A stretch of 64,000 nucleotides of DNA from assembly GCF_024741135.1 (NCBI RefSeq), contig NZ_JANSUY010000022.1, positions 1 through 64,000 on the forward strand, written 5' to 3'. The notes beneath the pieces were generated by a model. The model ran no database searches, was not told where the DNA came from, and saw only the letters and a list, made by a program, of their open reading frames with translations. A program made the translations under genes and the position numbers. Position 1 is the first letter of the stretch. The number at the start of each line of letters is the position of its first letter. The stretch is from Aquiflexum gelatinilyticum. Lineage in GTDB: Bacteria > Bacteroidota > Bacteroidia > Cytophagales > Cyclobacteriaceae. Below are positions 3,727 through 21,302 of the stretch, piece by piece.

Positions 3727-5346
<1,620 letters not shown>

Positions 5347-5363
5347 CTAAATTATTTCGAGGT

Positions 5364-5372
5364 GCAAAGATA
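5364..5372 (-). promoter_or_regulatory. Bacteroidetes-type -7 box for the ABC-F gene
   Basis: On the minus strand the sequence reads TATCTTTGC, an exact fit to the TAnnTTTGC -7 element of the primary sigma factor in Bacteroidota. It lies 24 bases before the ATG at 5340, giving a leader of about 18 bases. I see no clean TTG -33 element at the usual distance. Confidence 0.55.
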
Positions 5373-5448
5373 GGTATTTCCCACAAAGGGACTAAGGGAG
5401 AGGGGAGAATTGGTGGGAAATTAAAAAGTGGGGGATTCTTTCAATAAT

Positions 5449-5533
5449 AAAATCACAGTATAATGTGATTTTTTGTGAAAAAGATAAAAGTAAGTAGATT
5501 AAAACCGTCATTATCACAGTATAATGTGATTTT
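5449..5533. repeat. Two copies of a palindrome, TCACA-N6-TGTGA
   Basis: The element ATCACA-GTATAA-TGTGATTTT occurs identically at 5452-5472 and 5513-5533, 61 bases apart. In the first copy the arms extend to nine perfect pairs (5449-5457 with 5464-5472). The pair lies between the stop of the SEDS-like gene and the start of the ABC-F gene, upstream of the ABC-F -7 box. It could be a repeated operator for a dimeric regulator, or a tandem terminator for the SEDS-like gene. The half-site order is opposite to that of the E. coli CRP site. Confidence 0.6.
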
Positions 5534-5546
5534 GAGGGTTGTTTTT

Positions 5547-6431
5547 TTATAAATTTTTTTCCTTTGATTTTGAAACCCCATCCCCCAACCAAACCATTCC
5601 AATAAAATATCCGATAATCGGAGAAATCCCATAACCCATCACCATTACAGGGAAGTTTCCAAAAATGGTAACCAACAGAATCAGGGAGAAATACAAGCCT
5701 AAACTGTAAGCCATTGTCCTCTTTTCTTTGCTAGCCAATACAAAAAACGGAAGGGGTAACAACACTAAAGAAAGCACTGAACAAATGCCAAAAACCCAGC
5801 TGATTTTCCAGGCTAGTGATAGGATATCTTCCACGTAACTGACAGCAGGCAAACTGTCCAAATTGTACCAAGCAAAAACCGAAGCACCAAAAGCGGCAAT
5901 CAAAATCAAGCCTTTGGTGATGTTTGAGCTATTTTTCCTGAATAGTAGCATAACAGCCGCTGCTGAAAAAGCGGTTACCAATGAAGCATCTGGCTGAAAA
6001 AGGAAAATCAAAACTGAAAGTAAGGAAACCAAAAGGGCCATGATTTTATTTTCCATTTTATGAATCTGGATCAGAATCAGGGGACTTACAATCAAACCAA
6101 TATTGACCTTAAAGTTCCCAATACTGACCCATCTGTGGACATCCTGGTAGCCATCATCCCAAAAAGTCAGAAGCAATAATAGTATCGATATCAGGATAAT
6201 GGGGTAGGGGTTAACCTTTTTGAAAACCGGTCTAAACCTGAAGAACACCCACTGCAAAGCGATGCCCATCATGCCGAAACCAAGATTCATCATCCAAAGA
6301 GTTCTCGGAACCTCTGAAAAAGCCATGGTGTAGGTTCCAAGCAAGAGTGCCGGAAGGATTGCAAGAAATAAGAATGGGGAGAACCTGGGTTTTTGGTCTG
6401 TTTGATCCGTCATGCAATCCCGATAGGGCAA
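5547..6431 (-). CDS. SEDS-like (FtsW/RodA-related) membrane protein lacking the catalytic loop
   Basis: This 294-residue protein has about ten hydrophobic segments. Three short stretches match conserved parts of SEDS proteins: HRWVSIGNFKVNIGLIVSP resembles RRWINLG...QPSE, FLFQPDASLVTAF resembles the QPDLGT motif, and GNFPVMVMGYGISPIIGY resembles LPLPFxSYGGSS. SEDS proteins polymerise peptidoglycan strands. The long extracellular loop that carries the catalytic aspartate (PExHTDFI region) is missing: only about 20 residues (YNLDSLPAVSYVED) separate the relevant helices, and the chain is 80-120 residues shorter than FtsW. Enzymatic activity is therefore doubtful. It is encoded 36 bases after the double-propeller gene, probably in one operon. 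Translation may start at 6431 or at the in-frame ATG at 6413. Confidence 0.6.
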   Translation of the reverse strand: MPYRDCMTDQTDQKPRFSPFLFLAILPALLLGTYTMAFSEVPRTLWMMNLGFGMMGIALQWVFFRFRPVFKKVNPYPIILISILLLLLTFWDDGYQDVHRWVSIGNFKVNIGLIVSPLILIQIHKMENKIMALLVSLLSVLIFLFQPDASLVTAFSAAAVMLLFRKNSSNITKGLILIAAFGASVFAWYNLDSLPAVSYVEDILSLAWKISWVFGICSVLSLVLLPLPFFVLASKEKRTMAYSLGLYFSLILLVTIFGNFPVMVMGYGISPIIGYFIGMVWLGDGVSKSKEKNL

Positions 6432-6467
6432 GAATTTTAATTCTGAATTTAGAGAATATTTTTATTT

Positions 6468-8753
6468 TTATTTCAGCCAAAGTGGCGTCCCGTCTTCCCA
6501 TTTATTATGGGTCAATCTGATTCTTTGTTTGGTGATAATATTGTAGGCTACGATTTCGCCATACATCTGGGGCGAAAAAATAATAGGTTGGATAAGTGCC
6601 TGTTCATCGTTTATTCCAAAACCTTCTGTTGTGTAAATCACCCATTCGCCATCGGGAGAAAAATGGGCATGTGCATTTTGTCCTTCTCCACTTGAAATTT
6701 TTTCCGGTTCGGTCCAGCTATTGTCTGCCTGTAACCTCATCATAAAAATGTCCATTGTCTTGTATTCATTTTCCTCTCTCAGTCGGTCCGATGCAAATAC
6801 TATTTTATCGCCTTGCTTGGAAATAGCAGGAAAATTATCCCGGTGTACATCGTTGGTAAGGTTTGTCAGTTCACCATTTGTTTTAAGGTAGATATCAAAA
6901 TTACCGGTTCTACCACTTCGAAAAACCAATTTACCATCATCACTCAAGTCTGCAAAGCCATCATTATAGGGAGAATCTGACACTTTGCTCACATTTTTTG
7001 TCTGGAAATCATAACTCCAGATATCCCCTTGTGTATGTGGTCTTCCCCTGAAACTTCCTGTCGTAAACAGCAATGCTTTGCCATCGTGGGTTACCTTACT
7101 GTCGATAACACCAAAATTGGCAGGGTTGGTATTCGCTTCTTTGTCAAAAATAAAAAGCGGCTTTTTCTCTCCTGAAACATAATCAACCTGGTGAAAATGG
7201 ATTGCTGTTTGGACCAAATGATTGATAAAGACCGCGCAAAGAAGGGAAAATACCGCAAGTCCAAAAAACAGGATACTGTAAAGGCCTGATACCCGATAGA
7301 CCGCTTTTTGATTCGATTTTTGTCGGGTTTTTCTTTTATAAAACCACCAACCCAAAGCAACCAAGGCCAAAGTCAATATTGCCATGACCAACCGGATCAC
7401 ATTTATGGACATCGGGTTGATGGCATCCACAAAAAGGAAAATTCCCGCAACGGTAATTCCTGAAAGTATTACAATTAAGCAGAGCAGCAAATATTTCCAA
7501 AAGGGGATGCTTTTTCTGTTTATAATACCGCTTACAATTCCTGCCAGAAACATCAGAATCACAAGTATAGGAAGCCAAAAAACACTGTATCCCATTGGTT
7601 TGAGGGTATCAAAAAATCCTTGAAAATCTGAGGCGTCATAAAAAAGTAAAGTATTTCCCAATTGGGGAGGTGCTACAAATGCCCTTCGGACACCGAAGAT
7701 TTGGATTGGCTTGCCTGAAATTGATATGGTGTCCGGTCCTTTTGTCAATACATCACCTTCAAATCCGAATATTCCTTTTGTATCTTGATTCTTAGGGTAT
7801 TTGCCTCCGTGAAAAACCATCAATCCGTCTGGATGTACATCTATATTGAACATCAAATCCGGTGCGCTAGAAAATAGGGGAGTGACTTCTTTGGTCCCCA
7901 ATTCCGCCTGCATGATTTTAAAATCGCTTTCGCCTTTCCAAGTTGTAAAAACCACTTTACCATTTTTCAGAAATTTGGGAGAAACTGCCGGTCCGTCAAA
8001 TTCGATAACCTGATGTTGGTCAGATCCGTCCGAGTTCATTTCAAAAATTGCCGGATCCCCGTTCCTTGCGCTGTAGAAGATAATTTTTGAGCCATCCTCT
8101 TTCCAAACCGGACTTCCGTCCCACGAATCTGAATCCGTCAACCTTTTCAATTGCTCTCCCATGATATTCATCGAATAAATATCCCCTATGCGCTGACGTG
8201 CAAATGGGAATTGGGGATGGGGTACGATTTTGTGGCCACGGTCACTGCTGAAGGCAATGTGTTTTCCATCAGGAGAGAAAGCAGGCCTGAAATCACCACC
8301 AGGATTTTTGGTCAAATTCTTTGCATTGGAAACATCCTGAAGGGAGTCCGGTAAAAACGGGATGATATATATTTCAGAATTTCCTTCGTGCGAAGCGACA
8401 AAAGCCATTTGTGTCCCATCTGGTGAAAATGCTGCCTGATCCTGAAAAGAGTTGCTTTTCACCAAAAGCCGAGGAGGAATATCTCCGTCAACAGGTTTGA
8501 TGTAGAGTTGCGGAATACCGGACCGCTCTGAAGTAAAGACAATCCATTTTCCGTCCGGGTTGATTACCGCATCGTAGTCAAGCGAAGGATGATCAGTAAA
8601 CTTTCCAAAGCTTTTTCCTGAATCTTTGGAAAGATAAATATCCCAATCCTGTGGGCTGAAAGAGGAATAAAATATCCTTTCTTTGGATTGGGCAAGTCCG
8701 TTGACAGAAAATATAGTGATCAAAAATGCGGCTAAAAAGGTCCTTGGATTCAT
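6468..8753 (-). CDS. Double beta-propeller (TolB/PD40-type) membrane protein
   Basis: The 761-residue protein starts with a signal peptide (about residues 1-22, ending GLAQ). It has an N-terminal propeller built of PD40/TolB-like blades (INPDGKWIVFTSERSG, FSPDGTQMAFVAS, FSPDGKHIAFSSDRG, about residues 25-330). A block of four membrane helices follows at roughly 385-520, and then a second set of blades (LSDDGKLVFRSGRTG, FSPDGEWVIYTTEGFG) to the C-terminus. Both propellers should lie on the periplasmic face. The blades suggest protein or glycan binding, but no enzyme motif is visible. It is probably co-transcribed with the SEDS-like gene that follows after 36 bases. Confidence 0.7.
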   Translation of the reverse strand: MNPRTFLAAFLITIFSVNGLAQSKERIFYSSFSPQDWDIYLSKDSGKSFGKFTDHPSLDYDAVINPDGKWIVFTSERSGIPQLYIKPVDGDIPPRLLVKSNSFQDQAAFSPDGTQMAFVASHEGNSEIYIIPFLPDSLQDVSNAKNLTKNPGGDFRPAFSPDGKHIAFSSDRGHKIVPHPQFPFARQRIGDIYSMNIMGEQLKRLTDSDSWDGSPVWKEDGSKIIFYSARNGDPAIFEMNSDGSDQHQVIEFDGPAVSPKFLKNGKVVFTTWKGESDFKIMQAELGTKEVTPLFSSAPDLMFNIDVHPDGLMVFHGGKYPKNQDTKGIFGFEGDVLTKGPDTISISGKPIQIFGVRRAFVAPPQLGNTLLFYDASDFQGFFDTLKPMGYSVFWLPILVILMFLAGIVSGIINRKSIPFWKYLLLCLIVILSGITVAGIFLFVDAINPMSINVIRLVMAILTLALVALGWWFYKRKTRQKSNQKAVYRVSGLYSILFFGLAVFSLLCAVFINHLVQTAIHFHQVDYVSGEKKPLFIFDKEANTNPANFGVIDSKVTHDGKALLFTTGSFRGRPHTQGDIWSYDFQTKNVSKVSDSPYNDGFADLSDDGKLVFRSGRTGNFDIYLKTNGELTNLTNDVHRDNFPAISKQGDKIVFASDRLREENEYKTMDIFMMRLQADNSWTEPEKISSGEGQNAHAHFSPDGEWVIYTTEGFGINDEQALIQPIIFSPQMYGEIVAYNIITKQRIRLTHNKWEDGTPLWLK

Positions 8754-9135
8754 AGATTTTCAAATTTGATGGTAAATAGATCTAAGCGGACTCTGATCGG
8801 TTTTTGGGATGATTTCCGATTATTACTGGTATAATTTGAATTGGGCAAATAGATTAGACTATCCTTCACCAATATTTATATTTCAGAATAAGAATGATCC
8901 AAAGGATTTGAAAGAAACTTTATTCCGAAAATTTGATGTGAACAAATTCAAATTACATGTTCAATATAAATAAAAAGTATAAAATTTTGATCTTCAATTT
9001 CAGAAAAGCTATTGGTGGAGAAGGTAAAATTTACCTTAAGCAATCCTAAAATAGCCTATTTTAAATGGTAAGAATTAAGGTAAATCTTAAATGTTCATTG
9101 ATTTCAAATAATTGAAGCGAAAGGATCCCTTCCTC
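8754..9135. other. AT-rich 380-base spacer with small palindromes
   Basis: There is no gene here. The spacer separates the stop of the TonB receptor gene from the start of the double-propeller gene, both on the minus strand, so it should carry a terminator and a promoter. I find neither a T-tailed hairpin nor an exact TAnnTTTG box. Two perfect 17-base palindromes at 9021-9037 and 9047-9063 are the only clear structure. Confidence 0.5.
9021..9063. repeat. Two adjacent perfect 17-base palindromes
   Basis: AAGGTAAA-A-TTTACCTT lies at 9021-9037 and TAAAATAG-C-CTATTTTA at 9047-9063. A third, imperfect relative (ATTAAGGTAAATCTTAAAT) follows near 9072-9090. They lie 72-115 bases past the end of the TonB receptor gene and about 270 bases upstream of the propeller gene. 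They could be regulator sites or weak RNA hairpins. Confidence 0.45.
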
Positions 9136-11481
9136 TCAAAACTCCACCCTATAGCTCAATATAGGAATCAGGGGTGTCTGATAGGCAGTTTTGATAACAC
9201 CTTCCATGGGTTCAAAGTAACTACCAAAGACATTGGCCCGATTGGTTACATTTTGGATGTCTAGGGCGAGGGTCCTTGTGGACTTTGCTCTGTTGCGTTT
9301 CAGACTGAGCCTTAGGTCGGTCCTGAAGTAAGCAGAATTTTGTTCCTCAAAGGCATATTGCTCCAAAAAAACTGTCTCTCCGCTTGAAATAGAAGCATCC
9401 AAGTCAATCGGGGTATTCCACAAACCGCCTCCATATATGGTCCGTAGGTTCATGCCAAAAACCCGGTTCTTTTTCCAGTTGTATTCTTTTCCTGCGGTGA
9501 TGGCGAGGTTTGCTTTGCCGTTGAATCTGGTATTTCTCCATTTATTTTCCTCCGTTTTATAAAGAGAGTTATACACAGAACCTGAGACCAAGAAATACAG
9601 TCCTTTGTGCGTAAACTGCTCCAAGGTGAATTCTGCCCCATAGTTTTTACCAAATCCGCTATTTACCAATGGATCAGTCATAAATGACCACTGTTGGTTG
9701 ATGATGGAGTAGGTCTGATCTTCGCCCGGTTTGACAGGAATATCAAACAAATGCTGGTAATAGGTTTCGATTTTCATTCGGAGATATGGATTCAGAGACC
9801 GGTCATAGCCCAAAACCAGATGATGGGATTTGCTCAGACCAAGATTTTTATTGGGAAGCGAGATGATCCCGTTTTCTTCCTGTTTGGCAAAGTACGTTCC
9901 CAAAGGCTGAACCTGACTGTGGAGACCGTAGCCCAAACTGATTCTTTGCTTTTCATCGATTTCATAGGAAGCGCTGAGCCTCGGTTCAAGAGAATTGGAA
10001 TTGTTGAGCAAGAGTTGGAGGTAATGCACGCCGACATTGAAGCTGAGACGCTCGGTGGCCCTGAGATTGAGCTGGGAAAATGCCTGAATACTTTGGGTAG
10101 CCCCTTGGGCATCAATATTTGTGACCAATTGCCCCAGGCTTTCATCATAGCCTTTTTCGAAGAGGTTATATTGGAGGTGGTTGAGGAAAAAGCCGCTTCG
10201 CAGGTTACTTTTCGCTGATAGCTTGGTATTCAAAACCGAGCTGAAAGTGATTTTGGACTGGGAGAAATTCTCATAATACCTTTCTTCAGTTTGGTATTCT
10301 CCATTGAGCCGTTCAGCCTTGTCCCCAATTCCATTTCCAGATGCGAGGACCGTGGTTTGGAGGAAATTTGATTTATTGATCATGTAGGCGTGCTTGATCC
10401 CTACCGCGCCTGTGTTTGAAAAAAAAGTAGAATTCAACCTGTCAAATTCTCCCGTCCAAGTCAGGGAATCCTTTTCGGCTTCACTTTTTTGATTACTCAA
10501 TCCCCCAAAACCAAATATTGAAATTGCACTTTTTTCTCCTGTCGGAAGATAAAAGTTGAAAGACAGGTCCTGAAAGTCAGTCACAAAGTCTCCCAACGGA
10601 ACCCCGATTTTGGAAAGTAAGGAAAGGGTAGAGTATCGGTAATTGATCAGGTAAGATCCTTTGTAATCTTTGGCCATGGGTCCTTCAGCTGAAACATCAG
10701 TTCCCAAAAAGCCGGCCTGAATTGTGAATTCCCGTTTTTCATTGTTTCCTTTCCGGAGGTTCAGGTCAAATGCTCCTGAAAGTGCATTTCCATATTCCGC
10801 AGGAAATGCTCCTGTGATGAAATCAGAGTTGGCCAATAACTGTGCGCTGAGAATGGAAACACCGCCTCCTGAAGTTCCGGGATTGACGAAGTGGTTTGGG
10901 TTTGGAATGTCGATTCCTTCCATTCTCCACAGCAGGCCATTCGGGCTGTTGCCCCGGATGGAGATGTTGTTGTTGCCGTCGTCTGCACTCACAACTCCCG
11001 AAAAAGAAGCCGCCATCCTTGCAGGATCATTCACTGCTGCCGCAAATTTCCTTGTTTCCTCTACCGAAAATGTCCTTCCACTCACTGCAATCATGTCATT
11101 GACGGTCCTGTCTTTTTCATTGGCAAGGACTACCACTTCCTCAATCTGATTGAATTCTTCTTCCAGATTCAGATCAAGGACAACCTCTTTTCCGGAATTT
11201 ACTGCCACCTGAGGCAAAATCAAATCCTGGTATCCAACGAAACTGACCCTTAGGGAATGAGAACCCACCGGAACTTGTTGGATTTTGAAAAATCCTTCTT
11301 CATCAGTGACAGTTCCGACCAAAGGATCTGTTCCCAAAATCATGACTGTTGCGCCGGGCATGGGAAATTTCGTTACTTGGTCTACGACTTTTCCCCGGAT
11401 GGTTTGGGTCAAAGTCTGTGCATGCAGCGAATTGAGCCCAAATAAAAAAATAAGGGCAAATATTTTGGTAAATGATTTCAT
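9136..11481 (-). CDS. TonB-dependent outer-membrane receptor
   Basis: This 781-residue protein has a signal peptide (about 1-21, ending LHAQ) and a carboxypeptidase-regulatory-like domain (27-110, with IRGKVVDQVTKFPMPGATV and GFFKIQQVPVGSHSLRVSF). A plug domain follows at about 120-235 (PARMAASFSGVVSADDGNN, ISIRGNSPNGLLWRMEGI), then a beta-barrel to the terminal YRVEF with its C-terminal phenylalanine. It should import a ligand across the outer membrane using TonB energy. The ligand is unknown and no SusD partner is present. It has no STN domain, so it is not the obvious signalling partner of the FecR encoded about 5 kb upstream. A perfect hairpin lies just upstream of the start. Confidence 0.9.
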   Translation of the reverse strand: MKSFTKIFALIFLFGLNSLHAQTLTQTIRGKVVDQVTKFPMPGATVMILGTDPLVGTVTDEEGFFKIQQVPVGSHSLRVSFVGYQDLILPQVAVNSGKEVVLDLNLEEEFNQIEEVVVLANEKDRTVNDMIAVSGRTFSVEETRKFAAAVNDPARMAASFSGVVSADDGNNNISIRGNSPNGLLWRMEGIDIPNPNHFVNPGTSGGGVSILSAQLLANSDFITGAFPAEYGNALSGAFDLNLRKGNNEKREFTIQAGFLGTDVSAEGPMAKDYKGSYLINYRYSTLSLLSKIGVPLGDFVTDFQDLSFNFYLPTGEKSAISIFGFGGLSNQKSEAEKDSLTWTGEFDRLNSTFFSNTGAVGIKHAYMINKSNFLQTTVLASGNGIGDKAERLNGEYQTEERYYENFSQSKITFSSVLNTKLSAKSNLRSGFFLNHLQYNLFEKGYDESLGQLVTNIDAQGATQSIQAFSQLNLRATERLSFNVGVHYLQLLLNNSNSLEPRLSASYEIDEKQRISLGYGLHSQVQPLGTYFAKQEENGIISLPNKNLGLSKSHHLVLGYDRSLNPYLRMKIETYYQHLFDIPVKPGEDQTYSIINQQWSFMTDPLVNSGFGKNYGAEFTLEQFTHKGLYFLVSGSVYNSLYKTEENKWRNTRFNGKANLAITAGKEYNWKKNRVFGMNLRTIYGGGLWNTPIDLDASISSGETVFLEQYAFEEQNSAYFRTDLRLSLKRNRAKSTRTLALDIQNVTNRANVFGSYFEPMEGVIKTAYQTPLIPILSYRVEF

Positions 11482-11523
11482 GACGTTGGTTTAGTTTTCT
11501 GTAAGCAGATGAACTGAGGTTGC

Positions 11524-11549
11524 TATCCTGCTTCTCCAGAAGCAGGATA
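11524..11549. repeat. Perfect 12-bp hairpin between two outer-membrane protein genes
   Basis: TATCCTGCTTCT (11524-11535) pairs perfectly with AGAAGCAGGATA (11538-11549). A second, weaker hairpin using TGCTTC/GAAGCA follows at 11573-11588. They lie between the stop of the small barrel gene (11605) and the start of the TonB receptor gene (11481), so they could terminate or attenuate transcription. A related sequence (ATCCTGCTTTTGGAGAAGC) is repeated twice in the tandem repeat near 19.8-19.9 kb. Confidence 0.6.
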
Positions 11550-11604
11550 ACCTTTCTAATTATTTACATACCTGCTTCAGGAGAAGCATGTGAACTGATT
11601 CAGA

Positions 11605-12210
11605 TTACCTTTCCCATTTGCCGCCACCGACAAAGTAGCCAATCGTAAACCCGAAGTATTCATTGGTAGCTTGACCGATTACTTCTCCGTTGATGTTTTG
11701 GAGATCGCTTTTAGGGACAAAATTATATTCAGCGCCTATCCTGAATTTGCCCAGTTCCACGCCCGCCCTCAACATTGGCGCCCAAGCAAAGTTTGCCCTC
11801 AGGTCTCCCAGATCATCCGAGTCAATATCGGTGCTCTCAATGTTGACATTACTCATGGTATAGTAGCCAAAACCGCCACCGATATAGGGTGCCGCTTTTC
11901 CTTTTCCGTAGTTGAAATAGTAATTTGCAGTTCCGGTTATAGAGGCATTTGCGCCTAATTCTCCTGTGTAATCATCCGGGATTTCATAATAGACAATGTC
12001 TTTGGCAAGTCCTGCTACGCCCATTCTCAGACCCAAAGCAAGGTTTCTTCTGACAAGTATCTGTGGTTCCAGATTGACCAAAGCACCGATTCCACCTCCT
12101 TTTGGAGCAGCGGCACCAAGGTCCATTTGAAATCTAAATCTGTCAGCTTCTTGGCTATAAGCTGTTTGGACGATTAGCAATGCGATAATGATTGTGAATA
12201 GTTTTTTCAT
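11605..12210 (-). CDS. Small outer-membrane beta-barrel protein
   Basis: This 201-residue protein begins with a signal peptide (about 1-19, MKKLFTIIIALLIVQTAYS). Alternating amphipathic strands follow (FRFQMDLGAAAP, LALGLRMGVAGLA, GKAAPYIGGGFGYYTM, APMLRAGVELGKFRIGAEYNF, EYFGFTIGYFVGGGKW), as in eight-stranded OmpA/porin-like barrels. The role is unknown; such proteins often serve as structural or adhesion barrels. A strong hairpin lies 36 bases upstream of the start, between this gene and the surface-repeat gene before it. Confidence 0.75.
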   Translation of the reverse strand: MKKLFTIIIALLIVQTAYSQEADRFRFQMDLGAAAPKGGGIGALVNLEPQILVRRNLALGLRMGVAGLAKDIVYYEIPDDYTGELGANASITGTANYYFNYGKGKAAPYIGGGFGYYTMSNVNIESTDIDSDDLGDLRANFAWAPMLRAGVELGKFRIGAEYNFVPKSDLQNINGEVIGQATNEYFGFTIGYFVGGGKWER

Positions 12211-12245
12211 TGTGTTTTAAGTGTTTTTGATTTTTTGGCAGATGT

Positions 12246-12275
12246 CCTGCCCAAGCTCATTTTGAGCCGGGCAGG
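12246..12275 (-). terminator. Two-part GC-rich hairpin between surface-repeat and barrel genes
   Basis: CCTGCCC (12246-12252) pairs with GGGCAGG (12269-12275), and inside it GCTCA (12255-12259) pairs with TGAGC (12263-12267). The stem is strong but lacks a clear T tail on the minus strand. It lies 36-65 bases upstream of the barrel-protein start, so it is either the terminator of the surface-repeat gene or part of the leader of the next one. A smaller GGGG/CCCC hairpin lies at 12317-12330. Confidence 0.5.
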
Positions 12276-12369
12276 TGCTGCTGTTGGTTTAGCTTCTGAT
12301 GTAATGACAATTCAAGGGGATTTTACCCCTATCTGATTTTTTGATATTTCTATAAAAAAGGGCTATCAG

Positions 12370-13605
12370 TTAGAAAAATCTAAATCCGGATCTGAATCCC
12401 CACCACCATTGACTGGAGATGTTTTCAGGATGGGCCCTTTCATTTCGGACCTGTGTTTTGGTATAGGTAAAAAGTTCAGGATGGCCATCAAAGGAATCGT
12501 CAAATACCCTGAAATTAATCGTCGGTCCGGCAAATAAGGCCAACTTTTTCGCAACCTGATAATCCCCGCCGACATAGAGTTTGTTGATCAGATTGAGTGC
12601 TTGGACTTCTCCTTTGTTCAGTTGTTCGGAACTGACTTCTACATTCAGGAAAGTTTTTTTTCCCAATCTTGGAGAAGTTCCTACGCCGTAGCCAAATGAC
12701 CAAGTGACATCTTCGTTGATTTCTGGTCTCATACCTGCAAAAAGGATGTTATAGAATTCCCTCTTTCCGGTTCGTAATGCTATGTTAAGTGGAAGGACTT
12801 CATTGACACCGAACTCAACTGTGTGGTAACCAGAGCGCACGAAGCTGATCAGACCCACCGGAACCCCGCTCATGCTATCGGCATAGTTGATCACACCAAG
12901 CTGAAAGCCATTGACTTTACCTCCAAAATTAAATGTTCCTACCTGCGAGCCTTTCACTTCATGGGGAGTGAAATTCGCCAAACCGGCAATCTGTGATCCT
13001 TCGGTATTTTTTCCGGAGAAATTGGCTAGGCCTGCGATTTGAACTCCTTTGACTGATTTGGGGGTAAAGTTCGCCAAGCCGGCAAGCTGTACACCTTCTA
13101 CTTCACCTGTGGTAAAATTGGTCAATCCTGCCAATTGAACACCTTTGACAGATTGAAGATTGGAGTTGAAAAGACCTGCCAACTGTACCCCGTCGACTTT
13201 TCCACCTACCTGATTGAATAGGCCTGCCAACTGCACGCCTGTCATGTCGCCACGGTTGATATTGAAAAGTCCTGCCATTTCAAAAGCACGGGTTCCTGCA
13301 GAATATCCTCCGAGCAGGTTGAAGGAAACATCATTGATGATGTTACCGGATTGGGTGCCATTCGTCCCGACAAAAGGAACAAATGCAAACTGTACAGATA
13401 CAATGGTGGTATCTTCAGGATTTACGCTGAAGGGTTGGAATTTTATTGTGCCGATTTTTTCACTGATTCGGTGAAATGAAATCTTCGAATCCACCTTTTC
13501 GAGGCTATCGGTCGGGTTTTCTTCATGACCGGAAAGAGCTTTTGTTTCCACGGGAGAAAGGGAGAAGAAAGCCGCTGTTGCTAAGATTTTGCTTATGGTA
13601 TTCAT
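12370..13605 (-). CDS. LA_2272-type surface repeat protein
   Basis: The 411-residue protein has a signal peptide (about 1-24) and a short spacer. From about residue 85 to 270 come roughly nine repeats of 19-20 residues with the core GVQLAGLxN (GVQLAGLFNQVGGKVD, GVQLAGLTNFTTGEVE, GVQIAGLANFSGKNTE). A conserved beta-rich C-terminal region ends GFRFF. The pattern matches the LA_2272 surface-repeat family first named in Leptospira; its function is unknown. A paralogue with the same repeats and ending lies at 14713-16419. The terminal aromatic residue and signal peptide suggest an outer-membrane location. The gene is probably not co-transcribed with its neighbours, because spacers of 159 and 260 bases flank it. 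Confidence 0.75.
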   Translation of the reverse strand: MNTISKILATAAFFSLSPVETKALSGHEENPTDSLEKVDSKISFHRISEKIGTIKFQPFSVNPEDTTIVSVQFAFVPFVGTNGTQSGNIINDVSFNLLGGYSAGTRAFEMAGLFNINRGDMTGVQLAGLFNQVGGKVDGVQLAGLFNSNLQSVKGVQLAGLTNFTTGEVEGVQLAGLANFTPKSVKGVQIAGLANFSGKNTEGSQIAGLANFTPHEVKGSQVGTFNFGGKVNGFQLGVINYADSMSGVPVGLISFVRSGYHTVEFGVNEVLPLNIALRTGKREFYNILFAGMRPEINEDVTWSFGYGVGTSPRLGKKTFLNVEVSSEQLNKGEVQALNLINKLYVGGDYQVAKKLALFAGPTINFRVFDDSFDGHPELFTYTKTQVRNERAHPENISSQWWWGFRSGFRFF

Positions 13606-13865
13606 TTGTTTGGATTAGTTTCAATCCTATGACAAGCGAAACCAAAGACACCCCTATGCGAAATGAAAAAATTTTTTAAAAAAGACAGAAGACGGAAGAA
13701 GGGAAAAAATTTTGAAAATTCGATCGGGAAAGTACAACTAAGCAATGAATGGACGAAATATTTTTGGAAGATAAGTGATCCCGTCCTTTTTGGGCTTTTT
13801 GGAAATGATTAATGGAATTTAAACGGTTTTTACTCAACAAATGGACTTCTTGGAATTTTGTGAAG

Positions 13866-14558
13866 TTATTGGTTTTCTGTCAATTGAACATTTAACATAA
13901 TTCCGTCGATTGCAAAATCAGGATAAGCTGAAAAGTCAATATTTAAATATTCATCATAATGCTCCTTTTCAAAAAGATGAAATTTTTCAATTGATATCCA
14001 ATTGACTTTCTTTTTATAGGGCAAAAAAACACTGTCTATGCTTGATTTTAATTTGGTTTCCATTAAGAATTCCTTTTGGGTCAGGACGTCAATATTTTTT
14101 CGTCCATATTTTAATTTATAATCCCTAGATAATTGAATACAAATGTCTTGATAAAAAATTGGTGGATCAAAAACTAGACTTTCGATTCTTGTTAAGTCAA
14201 AATCCTCCTTTACAAATGGCAAAAATCTATCAAATTTCTTTAGTAAATCTTTGAACATTATAGATTTATTATTTCGAAAATCAATATTTACCTCGCCCGA
14301 GGTTTTGGATTCATTTACTCCAATTGAAATGTCTAAGGTATCTTTACCACTTATCGAATAATAACTGATTGACTTTGAGGAAAGGCTGTAATTAAATTTT
14401 GAGACATCATAAATCTGCCTTACAATAATTGTGTCTTGACTTTCAACCTGCTTTATTTTAGTACTGATTTTTGATTTTTCGGAACAAGAAAAAAAGCTAA
14501 AGACAAAGATGAAAAAATAAACCTTTCTAAGAATAAACCTTTTGTCTTCAATTTTCAT
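13866..14558 (-). CDS. AT-rich predicted lipoprotein of unknown function
   Basis: I do not recognise this 230-residue protein. A hydrophobic N-terminus leads to a lipobox (FSFFSC, cysteine about residue 25), so it should be a lipoprotein. The rest is polar and lysine-rich, with a pattern of beta strands and short helices and no motif I can name. It lies between the two LA_2272-type paralogues in the same orientation. Its base composition is clearly more AT-rich than both neighbours, as are its flanks (13800-13865 and 14560-14710), which suggests a separate origin or rapid evolution. Confidence 0.65.
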   Translation of the reverse strand: MKIEDKRFILRKVYFFIFVFSFFSCSEKSKISTKIKQVESQDTIIVRQIYDVSKFNYSLSSKSISYYSISGKDTLDISIGVNESKTSGEVNIDFRNNKSIMFKDLLKKFDRFLPFVKEDFDLTRIESLVFDPPIFYQDICIQLSRDYKLKYGRKNIDVLTQKEFLMETKLKSSIDSVFLPYKKKVNWISIEKFHLFEKEHYDEYLNIDFSAYPDFAIDGIMLNVQLTENQ

Positions 14559-14712: not shown

Positions 14713-16419
14713 TCAAAAAAACCTGAATCCCCCTCTTCCTCCAATCCACAATTGTGTGGCAATATTTTCAGAGGGATAGCTGCTTTCAGAAATGATTTTT
14801 GGATTGGTATAAGTAAAAAGTGGAGGATGCTCTGTATAAGTGCTGTCATACACCCGCAGGTTTAAACTTGGTCCGGCGAAGAAGTGGATTTTATTTGCCA
14901 ACCGGAATTCCATTCCGATGTAAAGTCTGTTGACAAGGTTCAAAGCCGAAACGTAACCTTTGTTCACTTGTTGGGCACTCAGTTCGATATTCAGGTGGGT
15001 TTTCCTGCCCAAAGCAGGGGAGGTGCCAATCCCATAACCAAAGGCCAATGTGGTAGAGTCAGCATTGTCAGTCCTGATTCCTGCAAAAAGCATGGTATAA
15101 AATGACCTTGTTCCTGATCGGAGTGATACATTCAAAGGCAACATTTCATCTGCCCCTATCTCAAACTGATGGTAGCCTTTCCTTACAAAATTGATAAAAC
15201 CTAACTGTACTCCTTGTATGCTATCAGCATAATTGAAAAGACCGATTTGGGTACCTTTAACATTGCGTCCTACATTCAGTAAACCTGCCATCTGCACTCC
15301 ATCAACATCCCTGTTGGCATAATTGGCTAGTCCGGCCATTTGTAAACCCTGGAAGTTGGAGGTTCCCACATTCATTAGACCTGCCATCTGAAGGCCTTTG
15401 ACATTTCCTGTGGTGAAATTCACCAATCCTGCAGCTTGAACGGCATTTACTGAATCCAAAACAATATTGGATAAACCCGCCATCTGGACGCCTTTGACTG
15501 TACCGCTTACCTGATTCAATAGCCCTGCCATTTGTACTGACTTGACATTTCCACGGTTGAGGTTAAACAAACCCCCTAATTCAGCCTTGTTTGTTCCTCC
15601 CGAAAAACCGCCCAGAATATTGAAGGAAAAATCATTGACCACACTTCCCGCCAATTTCTTGTTGGTGCTGACAAATGGGATCAGGGAAAGCTGGAATCCT
15701 CGATGCAGTGTATCACTCATGTTATCCATGTTGGTGAAGGCCACTGATTTTTTGGTCCATACCCAAAAGTTCTTCATCGGTTCTGCAATGCTTTTTCCAA
15801 CTTCTTCAAAGTCAATTTCCTTGGATTTGAGCAAGATCTTTTGGAATGGTGATTGCTTCTTATCAATTTGAAGGGTATCCGTATACATTTCACTGTTGAT
15901 CACCAATTGAATGTCTTCTGCCGGATTTTTTACTGAAAGTTGAAAATAGCCAAACTCATCGGTCAGGGAGGATTTGAGCGTGATCGGGTCATAGACAGTT
16001 GCATCACGAACCGGCTTTCCGGTACCTTCATCTACCACATAGCCACTGATGACCACATCTTTTGGAGAATCCGGTTTTGGAGTCAGAATGACATAAACAC
16101 CTTTTTGCTTGATATCCACTTTCCCTTCCAATACTGTTTCCAAAGCTTCTCGCAAAGGGATGTTTGAAAACTCGGCAGTCACATTTCTTTTAACATCTAT
16201 CGCGGAAGGACTGTAGGAAAAAACTGTTCCCGACTCATGGGAAAGTCGCCGGAGGAAAATATCAAGCGGTTCGTTTGTCGCAGAAATAGAAACTTTTTTT
16301 TCTAAAACAGGGATCTGCTGTCCAAAAGATGCGGTGGAAATGCAGAGAAGAAAAAGCAAGAAAATGAGACCACTGAGGTCCTTTTCTCTTTTTAGAAGAT
16401 GAAATTTAAAAGCAGCCAT
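14713..16419 (-). CDS. STN domain fused to carboxypeptidase-like and LA_2272-type surface domains
   Basis: The ORF can be opened at 16488, but the ATG at 16419 is preferred. It overlaps the FecR gene by only 14 bases and puts the signal peptide (LIFLLFLLCISTASFGQ) close to the N-terminus, giving 568 residues. After the signal come an STN domain (about 40-92, VSISATNEPLDIFLRRLS and IPLREALETVLEGK), a carboxypeptidase-regulatory-like domain (about 100-180, ISGYVVDEGTGKPV and GYFQLSV), a linker, and about nine GVQMAGLxN repeats with the same C-terminal domain as the 12370-13605 protein, ending GFRFF. In Fec systems STN domains of TonB receptors contact FecR in the periplasm. This protein has the STN domain but no plug or TonB barrel. 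It is the third gene of the sigma-FecR operon. Confidence 0.8.
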   Translation of the reverse strand: MAAFKFHLLKREKDLSGLIFLLFLLCISTASFGQQIPVLEKKVSISATNEPLDIFLRRLSHESGTVFSYSPSAIDVKRNVTAEFSNIPLREALETVLEGKVDIKQKGVYVILTPKPDSPKDVVISGYVVDEGTGKPVRDATVYDPITLKSSLTDEFGYFQLSVKNPAEDIQLVINSEMYTDTLQIDKKQSPFQKILLKSKEIDFEEVGKSIAEPMKNFWVWTKKSVAFTNMDNMSDTLHRGFQLSLIPFVSTNKKLAGSVVNDFSFNILGGFSGGTNKAELGGLFNLNRGNVKSVQMAGLLNQVSGTVKGVQMAGLSNIVLDSVNAVQAAGLVNFTTGNVKGLQMAGLMNVGTSNFQGLQMAGLANYANRDVDGVQMAGLLNVGRNVKGTQIGLFNYADSIQGVQLGFINFVRKGYHQFEIGADEMLPLNVSLRSGTRSFYTMLFAGIRTDNADSTTLAFGYGIGTSPALGRKTHLNIELSAQQVNKGYVSALNLVNRLYIGMEFRLANKIHFFAGPSLNLRVYDSTYTEHPPLFTYTNPKIISESSYPSENIATQLWIGGRGGFRFF

Positions 16420-17383
16420 CCCCGGAGATTTTGATTTGGGAACCTTCATCTTTGACTTCAAGACTGAGCGTTTCAGCAATAATTTCAAGAATTGTATTCA
16501 GGTCTTCATTTTCAAAATTAACTGTTAACCTACAACCTGAAATGTCACCTTCCATTACTATTTTTCTTCCATATACCTGAGAAAGACTGATCAAAATCTG
16601 ACTGAGTTCTTCTTCTTGAAAATCAAATGACCTGGTGACAAATGCTGCAACATTCGGATCTGCCTCCAGTTTGGAAAAAGTATTCAGGTCTTTGTCATAG
16701 ATTCCTTTTTCCCCGGCTGAGAGCGTAATACCTTCTACATCATCCTTGTAAAACCTGACCATTCCCTCCTGAACAGTAACTTCCACAATGGCACTGTCAG
16801 GGAAAGCCTTGACATGAAATACAGTGCCGATATCATCGATATGCAGCTCTCCAGCCTGAACAGTCCAATTGACTTTTTTGGAATCAGGGATATTGATCAA
16901 AGCCTCACCGGACAAATGGATCGTACCTGTTTTTTCTCTTTCGTTATAATCGACCTCGACTTCTGAATTTTTGTTGAGTGATATTTCCGTAAGGTCAGGC
17001 ATCTTCTCCGTAACCACTGTCAAGTCGGCGGTGAAATCGAATTCCTGGGTCTGAGATGATTGTCGGATGGAATAAAAAATAAAGGACAAAGCGAAAATCA
17101 GAATCAACCCAGCGGCAATTCCCCATATCGGTAGCATGATTTTGAATTTTCTTTCTTTACCTTTTATCTGGTTTTCCACTTTTTCCCAAGCAGCATCTGC
17201 ATCAAATTGCTCTTTGCCGGGCAACTGGGCTTTTTCATATATCAGCTTGGCATCATCCAGGTATTTTTGGTTTTCAGCCGAATGCGCACTCCATTCCCGC
17301 AGCTCACGAATTTCAGCCTCGGAAGCTTCATCAACAATGAATTTGCCGATCAGGTCTTCGATATGTTCTATATTCTCGTTCAT
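16406..17383 (-). CDS. FecR family anti-sigma factor
   Basis: This 325-residue protein has a cytoplasmic N-terminal region (1-83, including VDEASEAEIRELREWS), one membrane helix (about 84-108), a FecR domain (about 115-225, with ADLTVVTEKMPDLTEISLNK and GEKGIYDK), and a C-terminal STN-like DUF4974 region (about 250-320, SFDFQEEELSQILISLSQVY). Such proteins hold an ECF sigma factor and release it on a periplasmic signal. The gene overlaps the sigma gene by 4 bases and the STN/LA_2272 gene by 14, so the three form a tight operon and probably one signalling pathway. Confidence 0.88.
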   Translation of the reverse strand: MNENIEHIEDLIGKFIVDEASEAEIRELREWSAHSAENQKYLDDAKLIYEKAQLPGKEQFDADAAWEKVENQIKGKERKFKIMLPIWGIAAGLILIFALSFIFYSIRQSSQTQEFDFTADLTVVTEKMPDLTEISLNKNSEVEVDYNEREKTGTIHLSGEALINIPDSKKVNWTVQAGELHIDDIGTVFHVKAFPDSAIVEVTVQEGMVRFYKDDVEGITLSAGEKGIYDKDLNTFSKLEADPNVAAFVTRSFDFQEEELSQILISLSQVYGRKIVMEGDISGCRLTVNFENEDLNTILEIIAETLSLEVKDEGSQIKISGDGCF

Positions 17384-17961
17384 GGTTCCAACAGCCTTCC
17401 TATCAAGATGGTGATCAATGGAATATAGTCTTTCAATTGTACGCGCATCAGCTTCAAGGCTTTTCCCATTTGGTTTTCAACTGTTTTGACTGACAACTGT
17501 AATTGGTCGGCGATTTCTTGGTATTTGAGTTCTTCGAACCTGCTCATTTTGAAGATCAACCTGCATTGCTCAGGTAGGGTTTCCAAAGCTTCCTGGATTT
17601 TGGTCTCCAATTCTTTTCGGATTGCCAAATGATCTGAAGGCTGACTTTGCGGTTCACCTTCAGCTTGAAGGGAATCAGCGTGCAACTTTCGGACTTTCTG
17701 TCTTTTGATCTCATTGAGACAGGCATTTCGTACACTTCTGTATAAGTAAGATTTCAGCGAAGTATCTACCTGAATGGTTTTTTTCTTTTCCCAAAAGCCA
17801 ATAAAAACAGCCTGCACTGTTTCTTCAGCATCATCCGGATCCTTGAGAAAGGACAATGCAAAGCGGCAAAGGGGATTATAATGGGTTTTGAACAGCATCT
17901 CAAATGAGGCAGTATCTCCGGATTGAATGTTAGAAAAAACCTGTTGGTCTGTCGCCTGCAT
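17380..17961 (-). CDS. ECF RNA polymerase sigma factor, FecI-like Bacteroidetes family
   Basis: The ORF extends to 17985, but the ATG at 17961 (MQATDQQVFSN) fits the family better and gives 193 residues. Region 2 spans about 15-80 (FEMLFKTHYNPLCRFAL, DAEETVQAVFIGFWEKK) and region 4 about 125-185 (LPEQCRLIFKMSRFEELKY, IADQLQLSVKTVENQMGKAL). It should direct RNA polymerase to its own regulon under control of the FecR protein encoded next, with which it overlaps by 4 bases. Its targets cannot be read from the sequence. The surface-protein genes downstream are reasonable candidates. Confidence 0.9.
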   Translation of the reverse strand: MQATDQQVFSNIQSGDTASFEMLFKTHYNPLCRFALSFLKDPDDAEETVQAVFIGFWEKKKTIQVDTSLKSYLYRSVRNACLNEIKRQKVRKLHADSLQAEGEPQSQPSDHLAIRKELETKIQEALETLPEQCRLIFKMSRFEELKYQEIADQLQLSVKTVENQMGKALKLMRVQLKDYIPLITILIGRLLEP

Positions 17962-18066
17962 GAAAAATCCAATGCTTTCGTGCAAGTTAAGATATTGGGT
18001 CTTTATATAAAAAGAAACCTGAGAAGCTGTTTACCCCTATGCAGAATAAAAATATATACCGATTGA

Positions 18067-19377: not shown

Positions 19378-19740
19378 GAAATTAAATGCTCAAAATATTG
19401 AAAAAATTGAGAAAAAGGAAAATCATAATCTTTGACACCGGTAATCAGGTCACAGCTTTTTCTTTTCTTCAGTAGTAGAGGGTTATTATGTCAGAAAAAG
19501 CATGTTTAGGAAATAGTTCGCTAGGCATTTCATACTTCCCTGTTTTTGGAGAAAAGCATCTTTCTCAATCGACTTTGTTTCAGCCAAAAACCAAAGAATG
19601 TTAGTCTCGTTTTTCCCGGGGTTGCGTTCCTTACCCGGGGTTATTAATATTTGACCACTTCGTGGTCTACCAATACCAAGGTTTGTGTTTCGAGAGATTT
19701 TCTTATTTTTTTATTGTGAAATAGTGGCTTTGCGGGATAT
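19378..19740. other. Gene-free spacer, first part
   Basis: I see no gene in this stretch. It contains a short direct duplication around 19613-19641, where the words CCCGGGGTT and ACCCGGGGTTATT recur, and fragments of the CGTGG/GCGGGATATTCC words that form the tandem repeat just downstream. Confidence 0.4.
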
Positions 19741-20005
19741 TCCTTGTTTTTTTTTTGGTCTTAACGACTTTGGGTGAGACAAATCCTGCTTTTGGAGAAG
19801 CTGGATAACAGAAATCCTCCTTGTGTCTTGGTGCCTTCTTGGCATATTCCTTTTTCTCCTCCTTAGCGTTTTTGCGACTTTGGGGGAGACAAATCCTGCT
19901 CTTGGAGAAGCTGGATAACAGAAACCCTTCTTTGTGTCTTCGTGCCTTCGTGGGATATTCCCTTTTCTCTTCCTTTGCGCCTTCGCGGCTTTGCGAGATA
20001 TTATT
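19741..20005. repeat. 110-bp tandem repeat, two full copies plus a partial
   Basis: The stretch from 19761 to 19870 is repeated with about 80-85% identity from 19871 to 19980 with a period of exactly 110 bases: GAGACAAATCCTGCT starts at 19776 and again at 19886. A partial third copy (CGCGGCTTTGCGAGATATT) runs into the end of the fucP-like gene. The unit contains a hairpin (ATCCTGCTT...AGAAGCTGGAT) and the words CTTCGTGCCTTCGTGG and CTTTGCGACTTTG. It can be read as an ORF rich in REGAKEEKRE, a well-known spurious translation of such repeats. Confidence 0.75.
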
Positions 20006-21302
20006 TTTTCTTTCTCCTAAATCCAAAAACTCCTACCACCACAAAACATAGCAAAGGCAACACAAAAGAGAAATTAACTTCCGAAACTCCCATGATCAGG
20101 ATGTCATCATAGGCAGGTCCTCCAAAATCGAGAATGACTCCCTGAAGTGTCGGCATGATTGCTCCGCCCACAATAGCCATCACCAAAAAAGCAGCGCCAT
20201 ATTTCCCATCTTCTCCCAACCCCTCCAAGGCAATCCCATAGATCGTCGGAAACATCAGCGACATGGCAAATGAGATCCCTACCAGGGAATAAAGCCCAAA
20301 AATCCCCTCGATAAACATGGCTCCGAGAGTGAAAGCTCCCGCCAAAACGGAGAAATAGAACAGCAATTTGGCAGGATGAAAGTACCTGAACAAAAATGTA
20401 CAGATCCACCTTCCCACTAAAAACAGGATCAAAGCCGCATAGGCATAATTCACGGCGGAAGCATTGTCAATGCCGATGGCTTCGGCATATTGGTAGATAT
20501 ACGTCCAAACCATAATCTGCGCCCCAACATAAAACATCTGAGCGACGACCCCTTCAACAAATTGGGGTTGTTGTGCCAGCCGTTTCATAGAAGGCCAAAA
20601 GTCAAGGTTGCCATTGTTGGTTTTGCTTTCAGGCATTTTGGCAAAGGCAATGATCAATCCCAAAACGATGACCACCAATCCCAACATCACATAAGGGTCT
20701 CTGATTACCATCAGATCATTGGTGCGGACAATAGCTTTGGCTGATTCATCCAAAGTGTCATAGATAATATTTCCTGCAGCATCTGTATTGTTGGATTGGA
20801 GGGCATTGAGGATAAATTCTTTTGCCACAAAAAGCCCGGCCAATGCTCCCATGGGATTGAATGCCTGCGCAAGGTTCAGTCTTTGGGTTGCTGTTTCTTC
20901 AGAACCCATAGCCAAAACATAGGGATTTGCGGTTGTTTCCAAGAATGCCAATCCAAAAGTCAAGATATAAAGAGCAAGTAGAAAGAAGAAATAGCTTTCC
21001 CAAGCAGCTGCAGGGTAGAAAAGCAAAGCACCAAATGCGTACAATCCCATTCCGATCAAAACGCCTGTCTTGTAACTGTATTTCTTGATAAAAAGCGCCG
21101 CAGGAAGTGCCATGGTAAAGTAACCCCCATAAAAAGCCATTTGGACCAAAGACGCTTGAACGTTGTTCAACTCCAAAACCCGCTTGAATGCCGCCACCAT
21201 AGGATTGGTAATGTCATTGGCAAATCCCCACAACGCAAACAAAGAAGTAATCAAAATAAAGGGGAGGAGAAGGGCTTTTGGGAGAAGGGTGGTTTTGGGC
21301 AT
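20001..21302 (-). CDS. fucP: FucP-like sugar:proton symporter (MFS)
   Basis: The 433-residue protein has about twelve hydrophobic segments and FucP-family landmarks: SLFALWGFANDITNPMV near the N-terminus, QMAFYGGYFTMALPAA, FGLAFLETTANPYVLAMG and RLNLAQAFNPMGA. FucP imports L-fucose with a proton, and some relatives take other sugars. The two genes upstream on the same strand (an SDR and an FAH-family hydrolase) fit L-fucose use, which supports the call. A spacer of 185 bases made of repeated words separates it from the SDR gene. The coding end touches the tandem repeat downstream. Confidence 0.82.
   Translation of the reverse strand: MPKTTLLPKALLLPFILITSLFALWGFANDITNPMVAAFKRVLELNNVQASLVQMAFYGGYFTMALPAALFIKKYSYKTGVLIGMGLYAFGALLFYPAAAWESYFFFLLALYILTFGLAFLETTANPYVLAMGSEETATQRLNLAQAFNPMGALAGLFVAKEFILNALQSNNTDAAGNIIYDTLDESAKAIVRTNDLMVIRDPYVMLGLVVIVLGLIIAFAKMPESKTNNGNLDFWPSMKRLAQQPQFVEGVVAQMFYVGAQIMVWTYIYQYAEAIGIDNASAVNYAYAALILFLVGRWICTFLFRYFHPAKLLFYFSVLAGAFTLGAMFIEGIFGLYSLVGISFAMSLMFPTIYGIALEGLGEDGKYGAAFLVMAIVGGAIMPTLQGVILDFGGPAYDDILIMGVSEVNFSFVLPLLCFVVVGVFGFRRKKK

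Follow-up and report, generated by a model that had tools for sequence, protein, structure and literature searches.

A Fec-like sigma factor operon of Aquiflexum gelatinilyticum with a putative non-TonB barrel protein as the STN-bearing partner of FecR

The closest described relatives of the operon analyzed here are the cell-surface signaling systems FecI-FecR-FecA, FoxIRA, and PupIRB, which likewise combine a FecI-type extracytoplasmic function (ECF) sigma factor, a FecR protein with an STN-like FecR_C domain at its periplasmic end, and an outer-membrane partner with an N-terminal STN signaling domain. According to the available part of one study, the signaling domains of FecA and PupB touch the C-terminal part of FecR and PupR, respectively (PMC9249621); in that of another, the signaling domain of FoxA shields FoxR from proteolysis until the signal arrives (PMC11637429). 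A 64,000-nucleotide (nt) stretch of contig NZ_JANSUY010000022.1 of A. gelatinilyticum (in the following, the window) was found to contain a FecI-type sigma factor gene, an adjoining fecR gene whose product carries FecR_C, and a third gene for an STN-bearing protein with a predicted place in the outer membrane. The latter shows neither the plug nor the large barrel of a TonB-dependent receptor; it combines STN and CarbopepD domains with LA_2272 repeats and a predicted small barrel (STN-LA protein). We judge it reasonably probable that the operon encodes a Fec-like cell-surface signaling switch with a non-TonB barrel protein as transducer and an envelope regulon under a shared promoter.

A profile search of Pfam and NCBIfam assigned the sigma protein to Sig70_bacteroi1 (TIGR02985, E = 2e-53), with an alternative TTG start possible at position 17985. 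The FecR protein matched FecR (E = 1.7e-9) and FecR_C (E = 5e-11) in Pfam and the PDB entries 4m0n (E = 1e-6) and 6ovk_R (E = 0.091), and a single membrane segment was read by eye. The coordinates of the open reading frames (ORFs) bore out the gene order claimed in an earlier note on this DNA, together with overlaps of 4 nt between the sigma factor and fecR genes and of 14 nt between fecR and the third gene. In the STN-LA protein, CarbopepD_reg_2 was matched above the Pfam cut-off at residues 124–207 (E = 2.9e-9), and the LA_2272 repeat model NF047436 scored 25.5 bits (cut-off 25; best single repeat 27.8 bits in a genome scan). The same note had called an STN domain and the absence of plug and TonB barrel. 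Both calls were upheld, the former despite a score below the cut-off, with STN matches at E ≤ 0.01 in 9 of 12 aligned family members (best 6.7e-12) and a predicted fold like that of PupA and PupB. Neither plug nor TonB barrel was matched at E ≤ 1 in Pfam or NCBIfam, and the structural model contained an 8-stranded barrel, so that a TonB receptor overlooked by annotation was rejected. A TonB-box expression matched 0/71 transducers but just 3/10 TonB receptors and was thus uninformative.

The conservation of gene order was counted from the third gene in loci (designated by L numbers) that were selected among the top matches, usually with one or two for each genus, and are hence a non-random sample. 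Across several orders, fecR was located directly upstream of 62 of 71 distinct STN-LA homologs and of none of 21 LA_2272 proteins without STN. The 62 comprise 14/14 near relatives, 42/50 genes of the same order, and 7/8 full-length genes from other orders of the class, with one duplicate removed; in other classes of the phylum, all ten LA-only genes lacked sigma factor and FecR genes in the stretch. Of 17 loci in the species genome collection, 14 showed the identical order sigma factor–FecR–third gene at 36–88% identity over the best segment; L018–L020, which match the CarbopepD part only, were dropped, as was L051, which lies on the same contig as L016. Named genera among the near-relative loci were Cognataquiflexum, Aquiflexum, Algoriphagus, Indibacter, Arthrospiribacter, and Chryseotalea, which we take to belong to the order Cytophagales; the remainder were metagenome-assembled genomes. 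The sigma factor gene precedes fecR in the relatives, too. A 12-member profile matched 167 of 291 genomes of the order at E ≤ 1e-10, where any matching part was counted and TonB receptors are included. The 53 best-match stretches that were fetched contained 50 STN-LA genes counted as full-length, of which 42 directly follow fecR, and 11 LA_2272 genes without STN, none of which does. L130 (544 residues, no STN) was counted as LA-only and carries the STN-type label in the tree described below; a length rule would change the counts to 62/72 and 0/20.

The full-length protein was modeled with AlphaFold2 on the 12-member alignment (mean predicted local distance difference test score, pLDDT, 72), which gave an STN fold (residues 42–114), an immunoglobulin (Ig)-like domain (121–197), short paired strands in the repeats, and long strands toward the C-terminus. 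Foldseek matched the STN model at a probability of 1.00 to the signaling domains of PupA (2a02; template modeling score, TMt, 0.69; E = 0.021) and PupB (9cuv; TMt 0.64; E = 0.058), and the Ig domain resembled the N-terminal extension (NTE) of a SusC protein (9hfj; Z = 12.5; root-mean-square deviation, rmsd, 2.5; 79 aligned residues). The separate prediction of the C-terminal part, which the earlier note had proposed as a check, was run with 22 sequences (pLDDT 82; predicted template modeling score, pTM, 0.64) and yielded a solenoid followed by an 8-stranded OmpA-type barrel, and no TonB barrel. Residues 415–568 of this model matched OprF (4rlc; Z = 13.6, rmsd 2.7, 121 aligned), a designed transmembrane β-barrel (6x9z; Z = 13.7, rmsd 1.9, 109 aligned), and OmpA (1bxw; Z = 12.6), with a best Foldseek E-value of 0.0026 for the barrel. 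The C-terminal model thus matches 8-stranded membrane barrels, and TolA was not among the matches listed.

The repeat region of the C-terminal model resembled a parallel β-solenoid. Left-handed β-helices (GlmU, LpxD) were matched at Z = 14 but with an rmsd of about 10, and the right-handed tailspike 6f7k at a lower Z = 11 with an rmsd of 3.2 over 174 residues; in view of these mixed matches, we only speak of a solenoid. The number of repeats changes by single 16-residue units among homologs and between the two paralogs of the window; together with the 4-residue strands of the model, such steps disfavor the repeats as extra strands of one large membrane barrel. Both ends of an 8-stranded barrel face the periplasm. 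Since the sole predicted membrane barrel comes after the repeats, and since STN has to face the periplasm to meet FecR, the intervening repeats are most simply explained as a periplasmic-side stalk. They probably do not form the surface domain that the earlier note had seen in them, and the label "surface repeat" for LA_2272 may be misleading.

Alignment of the upstream regions of relatives revealed the same bipartite block before the sigma factor, LA_2272 paralog, and small outer-membrane protein (OMP) genes, and no such block before the DoxX-like gene. In the window, AGGGGT-N15-TKTC was found three times, exactly at these three genes (0.39 sites expected; three sites reached in 0 of 100 shuffles). 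When the spacer length k was varied in AGGGGT-Nk-TTGTC, 52 sites in 33 of 75 loci (1.08 Mb) were obtained at k = 14, and no other k between 6 and 25 gave more than one site. The LA-only control loci (145 kb) had none at k = 14, where the cluster rate would give about 7. For AGGGGT-N15-TGTC, the distance from the site to the estimated start of a downstream cluster gene was between −30 and 250 nt for 59 of 64 sites, with the 250-nt stretches before cluster genes making up 3.3% of the sequence scanned. These 59 sites precede genes for the sigma factor (21), LA-only proteins (11), FecR (8), the small OMP201 (7), the TonB receptor (7), STN-LA proteins (3), and DUF2807 proteins (2). Many cluster genes have no exact site (for instance, 21 sites for 61 sigma factor genes); the motif must therefore be less strict, or of another form, at the remaining genes. 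A scan of 25 genomes for TAGGGGT-N14-TTGTC gave 57 sites, compared with 13 when the pattern was reversed; chance may thus account for roughly one site in four.

From the computed gene order and its conservation, the domains, the promoter-like motif, and the linkage of neighboring genes, we infer a topology, an STN-FecR contact, a direction of signaling, the reading of the motif by this sigma factor, and the nature of the signal as follows. The C-terminal 8-stranded OmpA-type barrel would anchor the STN-LA protein in the outer membrane, and the LA_2272 solenoid together with the SusC-type Ig domain would carry the N-terminal STN into the periplasm, where it would meet FecR at the latter's STN-like C-terminal domain. 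If FoxA/FoxR and PupB/PupR are a guide, this contact may keep FecR at rest. A change at the barrel, either in the state of the outer membrane or cell surface or in ligand binding, would alter this contact and lead to the processing of FecR, leaving the sigma factor to act at AGGGGT-N14-TTGTC promoters. Putative targets are its own operon (positive feedback), the STN-less LA_2272 paralog, the small OMP, Toastrack/GIN lipoproteins, and, in relatives, the STN-less TonB receptor. On the grounds of STN contact or protection in FecA, PupB, and FoxA and of the same FecR parts here, the barrel-anchored STN is proposed to play the part of the STN of FecA. Because STN sits on a non-TonB protein of outer-membrane type in a conserved operon, the input of FecR is probably not the STN of a TonB receptor itself.

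A number of results weigh against this signaling switch with a non-TonB transducer. The homologs were found via the third gene, so their count cannot show which partners related FecR genes have elsewhere. A profile of ten FecR proteins matched 158 of 291 genomes at E ≤ 1e-30, and the 12 best matches (at least 314 bits) all adjoin STN-LA genes, as identified by eye. Among 20 lower matches, fetched as not known to adjoin STN-LA genes, seven precede genes for STN-bearing TonB-receptor-like proteins, six precede genes for short STN proteins, and four have no STN neighbor (L207, L209, L211, L226); two proved to precede STN-LA genes, and one is cut by a contig end. The earlier note had named orthologous loci with an ordinary TonB receptor as an argument against its proposal if this locus were a local rearrangement. 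Related fecR genes with such receptors do exist (7/20); the rearrangement does not apply, the arrangement being widely conserved. The STN match of the window protein itself (residues 67–99, E = 1.2e-5) reaches 25.4 bits, below the Pfam cut-off of 28.4; three of the 50 full-length homologs (L079, L083, L095) were counted by length and show no STN by profile. The full-length model has a pTM of 0.46, and Foldseek gave no match at E ≤ 0.001 for either the full-length or the C-terminal model. A TGTC-ended site precedes the sigma factor or fecR gene in just 29 of 75 loci, the looser TKTC ending shows no excess in the own genome (11 sites versus 11 in the control), and the motif is absent from the STN-LA locus L217.

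Finally, fecR is not directly upstream in 9 of the 71 cases (L052, L055, L059, L066, the second copy in L067, L073, L083, L084, and L118). The earlier note had asked whether the architecture always follows FecI/FecR in other Bacteroidota; it usually, and not always, does. In L059, the STN-LA gene lies at a contig end, and the fecR gene of L208 from the same genome ends about 150 nt before the end of another contig, so this pair may be intact. The STN-LA gene of L055 has 1.4 kb of sequence upstream. L052, L066, and L084 hold a lone STN-LA gene, and the same genomes hold a lone fecR gene scoring 202–242 bits (L207, L209, L211); in each, the operon pair looks split. L073, L083, and L118 belong to none of these cases; the upstream genes were read for L073 and L083. 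In L067, tandem STN-LA genes (4987–6738 and 7542–9278) stand behind one sigma factor–FecR pair and are adjoined by a DUF2807 gene.

The partners seen from FecR were of several kinds. The fecR genes paired with STN-bearing TonB receptors scored 198–210 bits against the FecR profile; both receptors checked in Pfam carried CarbopepD and plug and one of them STN, the other STN calls being profile-based. The six short STN proteins (L218, L219, L221, L222, L223, L225; 374–479 residues) have no plug and are unrelated to LA_2272 by profiles; Pfam found STN in four of four checked, once below the cut-off, and CarbopepD in L223 only. By eye, the C-terminal ends of those from L218, L219, and L222 resemble small outer-membrane barrels, which suggests that other short STN-barrel proteins are further non-TonB STN partners. 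At the other three FecR loci of the own genome, the partners are large receptors that carry plug and CarbopepD; two of them also have STN (C33, 909 residues: STN, CarbopepD, Plug; C43, 1189 residues: CarbopepD, Plug, STN below the cut-off). In a single BLASTP comparison, residues 1–207 of the STN-LA protein aligned with the C33 receptor over 21–206 (22% identity, E = 5e-4). AGGGGT-N15-TKTC was found in none of the seven FecR-seeded loci with TonB receptors and none of the six with short STN proteins; it stands directly before the lone sigma factor gene of L209, twice in the STN-LA locus L212, and once, with a weaker ATGTC end, in L226. The motif is thus associated with the STN-LA type. Overall, FecR proteins of this family have STN partners of various sorts, and the STN-LA type forms one conserved branch within a flexible design.

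The main rival explanation, rather unlikely in our assessment, is that the STN-LA protein is an accessory subunit of a linked STN-less TonB receptor, whose import state would be relayed in trans to FecR. The receptor family was found in the operon region at more than 500 bits in 13 of 47 sampled genomes besides that of the window, i.e., in 14 of 48 with it, where 0.3 are expected for all 48; in eight of the 13, the receptor gene lies 30–227 nt behind the STN-LA gene. The family is present in 4/8 other-order loci and 9/14 near relatives, and in 28/69 loci by a looser clustering from which L082 was left out. The motif precedes 7 of 34 receptor-family matches in relatives and is not found before the window copy. 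Against such a relay, 37 of 50 STN-LA genes have no receptor above 500 bits in the region, and the receptor may just be a member of the regulon; we know of no system that relays STN signaling between two barrels, although no search was aimed at this. The earlier note had taken the receptor of the window as the nearest one and as lacking STN. It does lack STN, and it is more than the nearest one, its family being a conserved neighbor. The non-TonB signal source proposed there stands insofar as the operon is conserved and its STN is borne by a protein other than a TonB receptor; the linked STN-less receptor may still signal in trans.

We consider it improbable that the STN-LA protein is output only, namely a sigma factor-regulated OMP retaining a fused STN, with another input for FecR and STN perhaps serving negative feedback. 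A plug-less barrel offers no obvious conformational path to STN, and the four FecR-seeded loci without an STN gene beside fecR show that adjacency is not needed. However, three of these four genomes also hold one of the lone STN-LA genes mentioned above, so the pair may just be split there, and STN was present in 40 of 42 LA proteins directly behind FecR in the 53-stretch sample, whereas none of the 21 LA-only proteins of the whole set is directly behind FecR. A local rearrangement or a fortuitous fusion without significance for a system, as might be read from the sub-threshold STN and from related FecR genes paired with ordinary TonB receptors elsewhere, is contradicted by the order and architecture kept in 62/71 homologs over several orders and can practically be dismissed.

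Regarding the regulon of the proposed signaling switch, a quick tree of C-terminal parts placed the nine LA-only genes beside the operon (window and near relatives) in one clade (Shimodaira–Hasegawa-like approximate likelihood ratio test, SH-aLRT, 96) nested in the STN-LA proteins. These genes accordingly look like duplicates of the C-terminal part of the transducer that lost STN and CarbopepD. In the whole C-terminal tree, which came from a short search and contains many weak forks, the STN label needs 12 changes, at least four of them forced by well-supported branches. The OMP201 family is a conserved neighbor that carries the motif in relatives. DUF2807 genes are linked in 14/48 genomes (0.5 expected) and are neighbors in 19/69 clustered loci (three proteins checked); 18 of 20 linked DUF2807 proteins have a lipoprotein-like start by eye. 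The linkage expectations treat genomes as independent, with copy numbers entered by hand (receptor, E ≤ 1e-40; DUF2807, E ≤ 1e-10) and 14 linked genomes set for each family.

Outside the window, the sole TAGGGGT-N14-TTGTC site of the own genome (contig 23, 155080–155105, plus strand; L145/L204) precedes the gene for a Toastrack DUF4097 protein with a lipoprotein-like start. Thirty motif sites not beside operons were examined: four precede genes for DUF2807 proteins (in four other genomes), three for DUF4097 proteins, four for small secreted proteins (186–213 residues) that are barrel-like by eye and match no Pfam family at E ≤ 0.01, one for a receptor with CarbopepD and plug, and one for a protein with a weak START match. 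Three further sites (L194, L198, L199) precede genes for a similar putative aminopeptidase (PF10023, checked in L194); it is not claimed as a regulon member, as all three genomes come from a single genus and the motif copy perhaps falls within the coding frame of the aminopeptidase. The other 14 sites are inside genes or have no gene downstream or no recognized or checked product. The motif-bearing genes point to an envelope regulon. In the available part of one paper, Toastrack domains are tied to envelope stress and to PspA/Lia systems, predicted to be intracellular, and in one context encoded in an operon with a sigma factor; its text contains no mention of FecR (PMC11237479). The proposal of the earlier note that the system senses the state of the envelope gains indirect support from the motif-bearing Toastrack-family genes.

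Table 1. Features of the operon, its product domains, neighboring genes, and promoter-like motifs in the window
Feature	Position	Strand	Details
FecI-type ECF sigma factor gene	17380-17961	minus	ATG start, 193 aa; TIGR02985, Sigma70_r2/r4_2 matches
FecR anti-sigma/sigma regulator	16406-17383	minus	325 aa; FecR and FecR_C domains (Pfam)
STN-CarbopepD-LA_2272 repeat-barrel protein (STN-LA protein)	14713-16419	minus	ATG start, 568 aa; proposed outer-membrane transducer
STN signaling domain, residues 42-114	16078-16296	minus	Pfam STN 67-99; AlphaFold2 model
CarbopepD_reg_2/SusC NTE-like Ig domain, residues 121-207	15799-16059	minus	Pfam E 2.9e-9; model
LA_2272 repeat region, residues 236-414, 16-residue repeats, predicted β-solenoid	15178-15714	minus	NF047436; repeat spacing; model
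Predicted 8-stranded OmpA/OprF-type β-barrel, residues 415-568	14716-15177	minus	Block pLDDT 75-96; fold matches
LA_2272 paralog without STN or CarbopepD	12370-13605	minus	411 aa; NF047436 34.8 bits
OMP201, small outer-membrane β-barrel-like protein	11605-12210	minus	201 aa; weak OmpW E 0.00036, PagL E 0.022
STN-less TonB-dependent receptor	9136-11481	minus	CarbopepD, weak plug just under cut-off; conserved neighbor
Promoter-like motif AGGGGT-N15-TTTC	18014-18038	minus	Upstream of sigma factor gene
Promoter-like motif AGGGGT-N14-TTGTC	13631-13655	minus	Upstream of STN-less LA_2272 gene
Promoter-like motif AGGGGT-N14-TTGTC	12306-12330	minus	Upstream of small OMP gene

Further observations concern the surroundings of the operon. 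The STN-LA gene and its paralog are separated by a 230-aa ORF (13866–14558) for which no Pfam or NCBIfam match was obtained at E ≤ 1 and no match is listed in L004–L017. A PD40 β-propeller protein with mid-protein membrane segments by eye (6468–8753) is also encoded behind OMP201 in L006. Between the DoxX-like and MFS genes, a low-complexity ORF (19703–20026) with SQSRK-like and KEE-rich repeats looks like repetitive non-coding sequence. In L077, several fragments of the TonB receptor family lie upstream of the operon (11341–13767) next to an intact copy (4428–6833), probably as a decayed duplicate.

More tentatively, the operon could represent a widespread Bacteroidota class, one of several non-TonB transducer designs, in which a small OmpA-type barrel on a solenoid stalk of variable length, and not a TonB importer, monitors the outer membrane or surface. 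Via FecR and an ECF sigma factor acting at AGGGGT-N14-TTGTC, it would control a regulon for envelope protection that comprises Toastrack lipoproteins, LA_2272 barrels, small OMPs, and a TonB receptor; this wider reading is possible, and we would not count on it. If true, the STN/FecR relay would be a general plug-in able to read outer-membrane proteins beyond TonB importers. Bacteroidota would gain a candidate system for sensing at the outer membrane, for which a sensor is defined, a promoter sequence is at hand, and a regulon is predicted, and a role would be suggested for LA_2272 repeat proteins and the adjoining Toastrack/GIN lipoproteins.

In titles and abstract openings of the open-access literature, no STN-LA_2272 transducer or AGGGGT-N14-TTGTC promoter was described, and nothing relevant on LA_2272 was found. 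A paper on Flavobacterium psychrophilum promoters, in its available part, gives an ECF motif with a CGT box, and no word of that text begins with GGGG (PMC9723704). The Toastrack genes (DUF2807/DUF4097/DUF2154) share the motif and lie near the operon, and their products are lipoprotein-like, unlike the intracellular prediction in the part of the literature cited (PMC11237479). STN-less LA_2272 proteins (NF047436) have the same 16-residue repeats and C-terminal barrel region, but neither STN nor CarbopepD by profile and no FecR directly upstream (21/21). The short STN proteins are likewise plug-less and encoded directly or nearly directly behind FecR, but have no LA_2272 repeats and no motif in the stretch. 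The STN-containing TonB receptors of Bacteroidota, such as C33 and C43 of the own genome, likewise start with STN and CarbopepD_reg_2 and stand behind FecR, whereas in the STN-LA protein the TonB barrel is replaced. In SusCs, the NTE precedes STN according to the available part of one report (PMC7782687); the STN-LA protein, C33, and C43 have STN first.

A partial precedent for a non-TonB STN protein is VreA of the PUMA3 system VreA-VreI-VreR of Pseudomonas aeruginosa, where, in the available part of the description, an STN-type domain is likewise part of a protein other than a TonB receptor, which is linked to a sigma factor and a FecR-type regulator (PMC2729926). VreA is a small, largely soluble protein that has no barrel and ends in a TolA/TonB-like domain (PMC2729926), unlike the window protein with its predicted barrel and LA_2272 repeats. 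Compared with Fec, Fox, and Pup, the partner protein of the window is without plug or large TonB barrel and has a predicted 8-stranded barrel on a repeat stalk, and the motif-bearing genes resemble those of envelope proteins and not of one transporter only. The STN-LA system is thus a probable variant of cell-surface signaling that lacks one defining feature, the TonB receptor.

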